A stretch of DNA of 64,000 bases from assembly GCF_000331735.1 (NCBI RefSeq), contig NC_020126.1, positions 4,340,001 through 4,404,000 of the forward strand. Direction: 5' to 3'. The notes under the pieces were generated by a model, which saw only the letters and a program-made list of their open reading frames with translations, did not search any database and was not told where the DNA came from. This DNA is from Myxococcus stipitatus DSM 14675. Lineage in GTDB: Bacteria; Myxococcota; Myxococcia; Myxococcales; Myxococcaceae. Positions 19,132 to 50,297 of the stretch are shown here, one piece after another; the first letter of the stretch is position 1, and each line of letters opens with the position of its first letter. The translations under genes were made by a program, and so were the position numbers.

Positions 19132-21057
19132 TCAGGCCTTGGCGATGCCGCTGGGAGGAACGGCGGCGGTCGCCTCGGCGGGGGGCGCGTGCGGGCCTCG
19201 CTCGCGGCCGGGGTGGATCTCCATGCCCAGCTCGAACGGCGTCGTGCGGTTGCGGCCCGTGCGCTTGCTGCAATACAGGGCCGCGTCCGCGCTATCGACC
19301 AGTCCCTCTTGCGAGGTGGTGTCGGTGGGGTAGTGGGCCACGCCGACGGAGACCGTGACGTGGCCCCCCGGCAGTCCTGGCTGGGTGAGGACCACGGTGT
19401 CCGCCACCGCGCGGCGCAGCTTCTCCGCCACTTCCACCGCGTCGTGCTTGGTGGCCTGGGGCAGGAGGATGACGAACTCCTCGCCGCCGTACCTCGCGAG
19501 CGTGTCCACCTTGCGCACCTTCGCGCGGAGGATGTCGCAGACGCGGCGCAGGGTCTCATCACCGACGCGGTGGCCCGCGAGGTCATTGAGGCGCTTGAAG
19601 TGGTCCACGTCCACCATGAGCAGCGCCAGCGGGGTGCCGAAGCGCTGGGCCCGCGCCAGCTCCAGCTCCATGCGCTGGAAGAGGTGACGCCGGTTGGGCA
19701 CCCCCGTCAGCGGGTCCGTCATGGTGAGCTTCACCGTCTCGGCGTGCAGCCGGGCGTTCTTCACCGCGGCCGCGGCGATGTCCGTCACCGCGGTGAGCAG
19801 CTCGATCTCCCCGGCGGAGAAGCTGGCCACCAGGGGGCGCTGGAAGTTCACCACGCCCAGCAGGCTGCCCGCGTGCACCATGGGCAGCGCGAGCAGCGCG
19901 CCCGTGTGCATGGCGTCCACGACGAGGCCTCGGCGCGCGAAGATGCTGGTGGGGTCGGTGACGTCCGGCAGGTAGACGGCCTTGAGCGTCTGGGCCGCGC
20001 GGCCACAGGCTCCTTCGCCCAGCGCGAACACCAGCCCCTCCGCGCCGCGATGCTCCGGCCAGGCCTGGCGCACCTCCAGCGAGCCCTCCGCGTTGAGGAG
20101 CATGATGGAGAACTCGGGAATCTGCAGCCGCTCGATCACCAGCCGGGTCACGGCCTCCAGCAGCTCATCCAGCTCCAGCGTGGCGTTGAGCGAGCGAGTG
20201 ACGTCGAACAGCAGGGACAGCTCGCGAAGTCGCTCCTCGAGCTCGTCCTTGAGCGCCAGCTTCTCCTTCACCAGCTCCAGGTCGCGGTGGGTGTCGATCT
20301 CCTCCGCCTTCATCGCGGTGAGGCGCGCGAGCATCTGGTTGAAGGCACCCGCGAGGCGCGAGATTTCATCCGAGCCGCGTGCATCCGCGCGCACCAGCAG
20401 GTCACCCGCGGCGGCGCGTCCCATGGCCGAGCTCAACCGGCGCAGCGGCCGCGTGAGGTTGAAGTGCAGCGACAGGGCGATGACTCCCGCGAGCGCGACG
20501 GCGAACAACGCCATGGAGCCCAGCGCGCCGCCAAAAACGTGCGTCAGTTGCTGATGCAACGCGGGTTCCGTCATCCGCATCTGGAGCACGCTGGCGCCCG
20601 GGATGTCCCCGCTCGCGTGACAGCTCCCGCACTCGGGACCGCCCAGCGGGCGAACGACCTCGGTGACACCATTCGCGGAGCGCGCCGTCTCGGGGCCGGG
20701 GCGGGTGAGTCGCGCGGCCTCCGGGTGCGACGTGCCCACCTCGGAGGGGTTGCGAGACCACCGCACGCGCCCGTCCAGCGTCAGCACGCGCACGTCCTCC
20801 ACCGAGCGGAACAGCCGCGTGTCCGAGTGAAGCACCTCCGCCACGGCCCCGTGCGCGGGAGCCCCGGGGCCTTGTGACAGCAGGAACGTGGAGGCCACGA
20901 ACTCCGCGAGCGCGAGCGACTCCACCTGCGTGGCGTCCTGCACCGCGACGCGGGCCTCGCGCCAGAAGTGCCCGACGCCCAGCAGTGCCACCACCAGGCC
21001 CGGCAGAGCGATGCTCCACAGCAGCTTGCGACCTACGGTGTCGGGACCCAGGGGCAT
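19132..21057 (-). CDS. Membrane diguanylate cyclase with periplasmic heme-c motif, HAMP and GAF domains
   Basis: 641 aa. TM1 is about 12-29; a periplasmic sensor domain follows (30-175); TM2 is about 176-198; HAMP about 199-252; a short coiled coil; GAF about 290-440; GGDEF about 445-605. The active site is GGEEF (524-528), a catalytically competent variant, with an RxxD inhibitory site (R515-D518) five residues upstream, so c-di-GMP synthesis with product inhibition is expected. The sensor domain carries CGSCH (143-147), a canonical CxxCH covalent heme-c site, suggesting redox or gas sensing. ATG at 21057 follows a perfect palindrome instead of a Shine-Dalgarno; a strong promoter match lies at 21118-21146. 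Divergent from pgeF. Confidence 0.9.
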   Translation of the reverse strand: MPLGPDTVGRKLLWSIALPGLVVALLGVGHFWREARVAVQDATQVESLALAEFVASTFLLSQGPGAPAHGAVAEVLHSDTRLFRSVEDVRVLTLDGRVRWSRNPSEVGTSHPEAARLTRPGPETARSANGVTEVVRPLGGPECGSCHASGDIPGASVLQMRMTEPALHQQLTHVFGGALGSMALFAVALAGVIALSLHFNLTRPLRRLSSAMGRAAAGDLLVRADARGSDEISRLAGAFNQMLARLTAMKAEEIDTHRDLELVKEKLALKDELEERLRELSLLFDVTRSLNATLELDELLEAVTRLVIERLQIPEFSIMLLNAEGSLEVRQAWPEHRGAEGLVFALGEGACGRAAQTLKAVYLPDVTDPTSIFARRGLVVDAMHTGALLALPMVHAGSLLGVVNFQRPLVASFSAGEIELLTAVTDIAAAAVKNARLHAETVKLTMTDPLTGVPNRRHLFQRMELELARAQRFGTPLALLMVDVDHFKRLNDLAGHRVGDETLRRVCDILRAKVRKVDTLARYGGEEFVILLPQATKHDAVEVAEKLRRAVADTVVLTQPGLPGGHVTVSVGVAHYPTDTTSQEGLVDSADAALYCSKRTGRNRTTPFELGMEIHPGRERGPHAPPAEATAAVPPSGIAKA

Positions 21058-21117: not shown

Positions 21118-21146
21118 ATTGTCAATGGGCTGACGCGGACTGTCAA
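21118..21146 (-). promoter_or_regulatory. Sigma-A-type promoter for the diguanylate cyclase
   Basis: Minus strand TTGACA (21141-21146), a 17-base spacer and GACAAT (21118-21123). This is a perfect -35 and a 4/6 -10, with a predicted leader of about 50 bases. A second TTGACA on the same strand (21120-21125) overlaps the -10 box. Confidence 0.55.
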
Positions 21147-49102: not shown

Positions 49103-49131
49103 TTGCCCCGTCCGGGGGGGTCTGCTACTTC
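49103..49131 (+). promoter_or_regulatory. Candidate promoter of the tetraheme cytochrome gene, apparently leaderless
   Basis: TTGCCC (49103-49108), a 17-base spacer and TACTTC (49126-49131). The predicted start of transcription coincides with the ATG at 49139. No Shine-Dalgarno sequence. Confidence 0.35.
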
Positions 49132-49138
49132 GCGAGCC

Positions 49139-49651
49139 ATGCGCGCATCTGGCTTCAGGGTCCTGCCCGTCCTCCTGCTGGCCCTTTGTGGCGCGGCCGG
49201 AGCGGCGGATTTCGTCGGCGCCGACAGCTGCAAGGGCTGCCACCCGGAGGCCTACGAGGCGTGGATGCAGTCCAAGCACGCCCGCGCGGTGAGCTCCCTG
49301 TCCGAGCAGCAGCAGAAGGACGGCCGGTGTCTGTCGTGCCACTCGCCGGACCAGGTGGCCCAGCAGCAGGCCAGTGTGAGCTGTGAGACATGTCACGGAG
49401 GGGGGCAGTACTACTCGCCCGAGTACGTGATGAAGGACCCGGAGCTGGCGCGGCTGGTGGGGTTGGTGGACCCGTCGGAGAAGCAGTGCCGCTCCTGCCA
49501 TGACGCTTCCTCGCCCTCCTTGCGGCCGTTCGACTTCAAGGAGTCGCTGAAGGCCATCGACCACTGGTCCGCGGAGCGCGCCCGTCGCGCGGCCCGCACC
49601 GAGGCGTCTGCTCCCGTGACAACCCCTCCCACCACCACCGCGAAGAAATAA
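49139..49651 (+). CDS. Secreted tetraheme c-type cytochrome
   Basis: 170 aa. Signal peptide 1-23 (GAAGAAD). Four CxxCH heme-binding motifs: CKGCH (31-35), CLSCH (64-68), CETCH (82-86) and CRSCH (117-121). The spacing resembles the cytochrome c554 family (NrfH/NapC-like electron carriers or perchlorate-type soluble multihemes), with a Lys/Thr/Pro-rich tail. Periplasmic electron transfer is likely; the partner oxidoreductase is not in this window. engB begins 4 bases after its stop, which is odd given their unrelated jobs. Confidence 0.85.
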   Translation: MRASGFRVLPVLLLALCGAAGAADFVGADSCKGCHPEAYEAWMQSKHARAVSSLSEQQQKDGRCLSCHSPDQVAQQQASVSCETCHGGGQYYSPEYVMKDPELARLVGLVDPSEKQCRSCHDASSPSLRPFDFKESLKAIDHWSAERARRAARTEASAPVTTPPTTTAKK

Positions 49652-49655
49652 CCGC

Positions 49656-50297
49656 GTGATCAAGATTCTCGACGCACGCTTCGTCATCACCGCCGTGGAG
49701 CCCAAGGGCTATCCACAGGGACACACCGCCGAGGTGGCCTTCGTCGGCCGCTCCAACGTCGGCAAGTCCTCCATGATCAACACGCTCACCGGCCGCAAGA
49801 AGCTGGTGCGCGTGTCCAACACGCCGGGCCGCACCCGCACGCTCAACTTCTTCGACGTGGACCTGGAGCGAGGCTCCTTCCGTCACCAGGTCCGCTTGTG
49901 TGACTTGCCGGGCTACGGCTTCGCCCGCGCGAGCAAGGCGGACAAGGCCCAGTGGGAGAAGATGATCACCACCTACCTGGAGAAGCGTCATCGCCTGGAG
50001 GTGGTGGTGAGCATCATCGACGCGGAGGTGGGGCCCACGCCGGATGACCTCGCCACGCTCGACTATCTCCAGTCGCACAAGCGCAAGGTGATGGTGGTGG
50101 CGACGAAGATCGACCGCCTCACCAAGGCCAAGACGCGCCCCCGCCTGGTGGAATTGTCGAAGCAGCTGGACCTGCCCATGGAGGCCATCCTGCCGTTCTC
50201 CTCGACGGAGCCGCGGGGCGTGGACGAGGTCTGGAACGCGCTGCTCGACACGTTCGGCAAGGCCAGCCGCGTCCGTCCCGAGGGCTCCGAGGACTGA
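49656..50297 (+). CDS. engB: Ribosome biogenesis GTPase EngB/YsxC
   Basis: 213-aa TRAFAC GTPase needed for 50S assembly. G1 GRSNVGKSS (31-39), G2 TPGRTRTLNFF, G3 DLPGYGFA, G4 TKID and the G5-like ILPFSSTEPRG are all present. GTG start 4 bases after the cytochrome stop, implying co-transcription. Typical family length. Confidence 0.94.
   Translation: MIKILDARFVITAVEPKGYPQGHTAEVAFVGRSNVGKSSMINTLTGRKKLVRVSNTPGRTRTLNFFDVDLERGSFRHQVRLCDLPGYGFARASKADKAQWEKMITTYLEKRHRLEVVVSIIDAEVGPTPDDLATLDYLQSHKRKVMVVATKIDRLTKAKTRPRLVELSKQLDLPMEAILPFSSTEPRGVDEVWNALLDTFGKASRVRPEGSED

Follow-up and report, generated by a model that had tools for sequence, protein, structure and literature searches.

A membrane-bound diguanylate cyclase of Myxococcus stipitatus with a predicted covalent heme-c Cache sensor domain

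A minus-strand gene of Myxococcus stipitatus DSM 14675 raises the question of whether a diguanylate cyclase could be controlled by heme bound covalently in a periplasmic sensor domain, and which signal such a heme would perceive. The gene lies in the 64,000-nucleotide stretch analyzed here (the window; NC_020126.1, positions 4,340,001 to 4,404,000), within a host genome that consists of a single contig of 10,350,586 bases. The initial annotation, in which the strand was not stated, had described a HAMP-GAF-GGDEF protein with an intact GGEEF motif and I-site, and with a CGSCH motif between two membrane spans. Hydropathy analysis bears out the position of the motif, the spans being centered at approximately residues 20 and 187, and Pfam and motif searches bear out the domain architecture, with HAMP, GAF, and GGDEF matches that all exceed the Pfam cut-offs (for PF00990, 159 bits against a curated cut-off of 23.8). 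We consider it quite probable, from sequence comparison and structural modeling, that the protein is a membrane-bound, heme-c based sensor diguanylate cyclase carrying a predicted covalent heme (Table 1). The initial annotation had likewise placed a covalent heme-c sensor upstream of the cyclase, and this proposal is well supported because the motif is invariant, the predicted Cache fold presents the CxxCH on a helix, a wide profile of the domain recovers the Geobacter heme-c sensors GSU0582 and GSU0935, and the genome encodes a cytochrome c maturation (Ccm) system.

Table 1. Features of the predicted heme-c sensor diguanylate cyclase gene, in window coordinates.
Feature	Position	Strand	Details	Basis
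Diguanylate cyclase gene	19132..21057	minus	641 aa; TM1 - heme-c Cache (predicted) - TM2 - HAMP - GAF - GGEEF	ORF, Pfam, orthologues
HAMP domain	20317..20460	minus	residues 200-247	PF00672, E 4.9e-14
GAF domain	19762..20175	minus	residues 295-432	PF01590, E 4.6e-15
GGDEF domain	19246..19722	minus	residues 446-604; I-site RKVD 515-518, A-site GGEEF 524-528, Asp500	PF00990, E 1.1e-46
Periplasmic Cache-type sensor domain with flanking helices	20530..20970	minus	residues 30-176	AlphaFold models; VIA-align to WalK sCache
CGSCH, predicted covalent heme-c attachment site	20617..20631	minus	residues 143-147; proximal ligand His147	Invariance
His69 codon, candidate second (distal) heme-iron ligand	20851..20853	minus	ligand role inferred	Conservation
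Promoter-like TTGACA-17-GACAAT	21118..21146	minus	61 bp upstream of start codon	Consensus match only

The cyclase appears to be intact, and its product should be c-di-GMP rather than cGAMP, because the substrate-specificity position is occupied by Asp500, which together with GGEEF is the canonical combination. In the Hypr GGDEF enzymes (cGAMP synthases) this Asp is replaced by Ser (or Thr) (PMC6456294), and a Hypr identity was rejected on this rule. The segment RKVDTLARYGGEEF starts at residue 515, with the RKVD I-site five residues ahead of the GGEEF A-site; all 60 proteins examined have GGEEF, and all 60 have an RxxD I-site.

Judged from the alignments, CxxCH is conserved in the manner of a heme-attachment site, rather than of a motif that arose by chance, because both cysteines and the histidine are invariant while the two intervening residues vary freely. 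The initial annotation had made its proposal dependent on conservation of the motif in orthologues, and CxxCH is retained in every homologue that has the domain (95 of the 95 collected, some genomes being counted twice), with 18 different pairs of intervening residues. Cys143, Cys146, His147, and His69 are invariant in all 38 aligned orthologues that retain the periplasmic domain; in a 28-sequence alignment that extends down to approximately 15% identity, only the C, C, and H of the motif are fully invariant, with His69 (27 of 28 members), one Gly, and one Ser nearly so. CxxCH also occurs in only approximately 0.1% of shuffled versions of the protein, although we regard the conservation as stronger evidence than the shuffling that the motif did not arise by chance.

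AlphaFold models of the domain (m9de032bd6eb3; pLDDT 87, pTM 0.81) and of a TM-HAMP construct (m71364ab5c9ca; pLDDT 84, pTM 0.65) contain a long N-terminal helix, a short second helix, and five strands, with a short CxxCH helix immediately before the last strand (in model numbering, strands 57–64, 68–72, 95–99, and 102–109, CxxCH helix 112–118, and strand 127–134). The prediction supports a single Cache fold in which the heme helix precedes the last strand. This is the layout of the sCache_heme domains, which have been described as Cache folds carrying an insert of cytochrome origin, with WalK as the heme-free comparison (PMC12889525). Alignment to the WalK sCache domain (7dud) using VIA-align gave a Z of 12.7 and an rmsd of 3.0 over 129 residues, and the top fold matches were ligand-binding Cache domains such as those of WalK, TlpB, and Adeh_3718 with acetate (PMC3831638). 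Foldseek also listed GSU0582 and GSU0935, which superposed poorly; neither these two nor Tll0287 was among the VIA matches listed, which is not evidence against a relationship.

The periplasmic domain had no match in Pfam or NCBIfam, and a single-sequence search of PDB sequences matched the GGDEF part only. With a profile built from orthologues alone, the best PDB sequence, GSU0582 (3b47), had the CxxCH in register but an E of 0.26, which is not significant; with a wider family profile, GSU0582 (E 8.1e-5) and GSU0935 (E 0.0033) were recovered with the CxxCH in register, together with Tll0287 (E 0.037), for which the motif region only was aligned. A tandem cytochrome c555 trimer outranks GSU0582 in the wide-profile search, through its three bare-motif copies only. 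The window protein has no match to PF11845 (Tll0287-like) at an E of 10, and 4 of 28 homologues reach this model only below its cut-off (best E 0.0052; 17.7 bits against 24.1); alignment of the domain to PF11845 members from relatives using hhalign covered only 17 columns, around the motif. There is likewise no match of the window protein to PF21563 (Mcp40H-20 sensor), the family of GSU0582, which itself matches the model; a distant homologue (L166) reaches an E of 0.002, below the cut-off. Because distant homologues touch both PF21563 and PF11845 below their cut-offs, the window domain would be a diverged relative of the GSU0582, GSU0935, and Tll0287 sensors that falls outside both families as currently drawn. 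Heme-c Cache sensors would thereby extend beyond the existing family models.

For heme attachment, the M. stipitatus genome encodes CcmE and two Ccm-type proteins, clustered at 6.018–6.020 Mb (System I), and ResB was not found in this genome; domain-bearing relatives that lack CcmE (G037 and G038) have ResB, a System II component. One match to the cytochrome c assembly family (L129; G000:C1:6018390-6018956) has an in-frame TGA in the aligned stretch, which may be a gene boundary or mark a disrupted copy. Elsewhere in the window, an ORF resembling a small multiheme c-type cytochrome (49103-49651, plus strand), in which CxxCH occurs four times (CKGCH, CLSCH, CETCH, and CRSCH), sits just upstream of an EngB-type GTPase (49656-50297).

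Ungapped extension of the profile alignment to GSU0582 places His69 approximately four residues away from the counterpart of position 60, on the stretch that precedes the second helix. Since Met60 is the switchable ligand of GSU0935 (PMC8396549), and His69 lies near the equivalent of this position, we propose His69 as the distal ligand; it is probably the exchangeable second ligand of the heme. We envisage that the first membrane helix would export the periplasmic Cache domain, and that the Ccm system would attach heme at Cys143 and Cys146, with His147 as the proximal ligand. Binding of NO, or a redox change that swaps the second ligand, would alter the heme pocket, and the change would be relayed through the N-terminal helix and the transmembrane helices to HAMP and then GAF, altering the pairing of two GGEEF domains and with it the synthesis of c-di-GMP.

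Whether the motif carries heme at all has to be weighed against an ordinary Cache sensor in which CxxCH forms a thiol/disulfide switch or a metal (Zn, Cu) site. The periplasmic domain comprises approximately 140 residues in which Cys143 and Cys146 are the sole cysteines, and these could form a disulfide; however, His147 is no less invariant than the two cysteines, the motif aligns in register with those of GSU0582, GSU0935, and Tll0287 at a structural placement that fits heme-Cache domains, and a motif of this kind would presumably be modified by the Ccm system, so that we regard a heme-free site as very unlikely. A heme that is present could also be structural or vestigial, with the true signal entering either as a small ligand bound by the Cache pocket or through GAF. 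The best fold matches are indeed ligand-binding Cache domains, and orthologues without the domain persist with GAF-GGEEF (see below), meaning that GAF can serve as an input; a vestigial site would nevertheless be expected to drift, whereas no other feature of the domain is conserved as strongly as the heme site, and this explanation likewise seems to us very unlikely.

If the domain is a heme-c sensor, the signal would be NO or redox, and by analogy with characterized proteins we slightly favor NO. In P. azotoformans, an sCache_heme protein linked to HAMP binds NO tightly and releases it slowly, but does not bind O2 (PMC12889525), and GSU0582 and GSU0935, the hemes of which have been characterized (PMC8396549), also bind NO. 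Redox stays in play because His69 is conserved: as a sub-case of the heme-c interpretation and a rival to NO as the signal, a low-spin heme with bis-His ligation (His147/His69) could track periplasmic redox potential with no physiological gas ligand. The near-invariance of His69 makes a stable six-coordinate heme plausible, and GSU0582 and GSU0935, which have potentials of -156 and -251 mV, were regarded as redox sensors (PMC8396549); on the other hand, these two proteins bind NO and CO with displacement of the sixth ligand, and the sole signaling-type sCache_heme protein tested acts as an NO sensor (PMC12889525). We therefore hold redox sensing to be possible, if rather doubtful. Tight ligation by His69 would imply slower NO sensing and would make a redox role likelier.

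Orthologues of the whole protein (E ≤ 1e-80) were identified in 47 of 61 relatives, including M. xanthus (L074; 645 aa, CAGCH), Corallococcus, Archangium, Hyalangium, and Citreicoccus. A record titled "Comamonas sp. KCTC 72670" (L078; BNCN01000003.1) also contains a fully syntenic orthologue of Myxococcus type and is probably a mislabeled myxobacterium. A phylum-wide profile search found the periplasmic domain in 97 of 195 genomes; of the distant cases, which belong to other Myxococcota families, the majority share the TM-domain-TM-HAMP-GAF-GGEEF layout. Two Myxococcaceae genomes (G036 and G035) encode a CxxCH Cache-type domain on HAMP and a histidine kinase (L167 and L169, respectively), and both also have the cyclase version. 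In the M. stipitatus genome the heme-Cache domain looks to be single-copy, since other weak matches to the domain profile were unrelated proteins, including a GspE/PilB-type ATPase with CxxCH and a 663-residue ORF. It is conceivable, at a likelihood that falls a little short of even, that these domains constitute a distinct, phylum-wide Myxococcota subfamily of heme-c Cache sensors, outside the Pfam models and with an invariant distal His69, that links periplasmic NO or redox to c-di-GMP in most Myxococcaceae. If so, the protein could become the first biochemically characterized c-type heme-gated diguanylate cyclase, none having been found in the literature searched.

Certain orthologues lack the sensor. 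A fully syntenic orthologue in G034 (L185; G034:C1:552500-562500) retains HAMP-GAF-GGEEF without the periplasmic domain, TM1 running almost directly into TM2, and similar domain-less orthologues with yfiH-side synteny occur at two further loci (L188 and L192). A tree of the cytoplasmic part requires three presence/absence changes, at least two of which are forced by well-supported branches; the deep branches are weak. G034 is nested among heme-bearing Myxococcaceae, for which loss of the sensor is the simplest reading of the tree. The sensor thus appears to behave as a detachable module that keeps its heme motif intact for as long as the domain is retained. Ccm-system status was considered as the cause of domain loss and rejected: domain-less genomes also carry cytochrome c maturation genes of either type.

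Transcription of the gene diverges from that of a yfiH-type gene and converges with that of an htrA-type gene, and these orientations leave an operon role with HtrA or YfiH unsupported. Nearly all named orthologues on a contig long enough to cover them retain the yfiH, TPR, LysM, and dprA neighbors. The gene is probably transcribed alone, given the sigma-70-like site upstream of the start codon, which as a consensus match only agrees at 10 of 12 positions (mean of 0.0 in shuffles).

The initial annotation had connected the protein to motility or development, a link that screens in M. xanthus weaken. Inactivation of the 11 predicted diguanylate cyclase genes implicated DmxA alone in motility during growth (PMC11255338), and of 24 genes for GGDEF, EAL, or HD-GYP proteins, only sgmT, tmoK, dmxB, and pmxA affected development, the other 20 showing no such phenotype (PMC4877007). 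The M. xanthus orthologue should be among the genes screened, and is probably MXAN2997, from a length match only (646 residues in the strain list versus 645 here). It is therefore unlikely that the protein acts constitutively in motility or development, since the deletion screens implicate other genes; screens under standard laboratory conditions could have missed a gas- or redox-dependent role, conditional on NO, oxygen limitation, or redox stress. Our analysis provides a concrete input for one of the diguanylate cyclases predicted in the myxobacterial model, which number approximately eleven and for the most part lack a known signal. It also names Cys143, Cys146, His147, and His69 as residues for mutation, for which the sensor-less orthologue at the same locus is a natural control.

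Among heme proteins that control c-di-GMP, the globin-coupled and PAS-heme diguanylate cyclases/phosphodiesterases (DosC, DosP) are cytoplasmic and bind heme b non-covalently. The window protein resembles them in placing c-di-GMP under heme sensing, and differs in that its predicted heme c would be covalent and periplasmic. The initial annotation overstated the rarity of covalent heme sensors feeding c-di-GMP: a 2026 preprint describes thousands of heme-c Cache domains, some of them fused to GGDEF/EAL proteins (PMC12889525), so that heme-Cache fusions to GGDEF proteins are already known; the ligand set here is possibly distinct. With these sCache_heme domains (DUF3365/Tll0287, PF11845), the window domain shares a single periplasmic Cache fold (predicted), a short CxxCH-bearing helix placed just ahead of the last strand, strict conservation of the motif (approximately 99% of sCache_heme members), and HAMP linkage to signaling outputs that include GGDEF/EAL proteins (PMC12889525); unlike them, the window protein has a GAF domain between HAMP and GGDEF, and in place of the Cys ligand of Tll0287 it has the conserved His69 in the helix-helix loop. 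DmxA and DmxB of M. xanthus are GGDEF diguanylate cyclases from the same genus, although DmxA has two GAF domains before GGDEF and DmxB is cytoplasmic with a receiver domain, and the two reports describe neither with a heme motif (PMC11255338; PMC4877007). The closest sequence relatives with solved structures are GSU0582 and GSU0935 (PDB 3b47 and 3b42), which are likewise periplasmic sensors of membrane receptors; their output, however, is chemotaxis, and the segment that holds the switchable Met60 in these Geobacter proteins holds His69 in the window protein.
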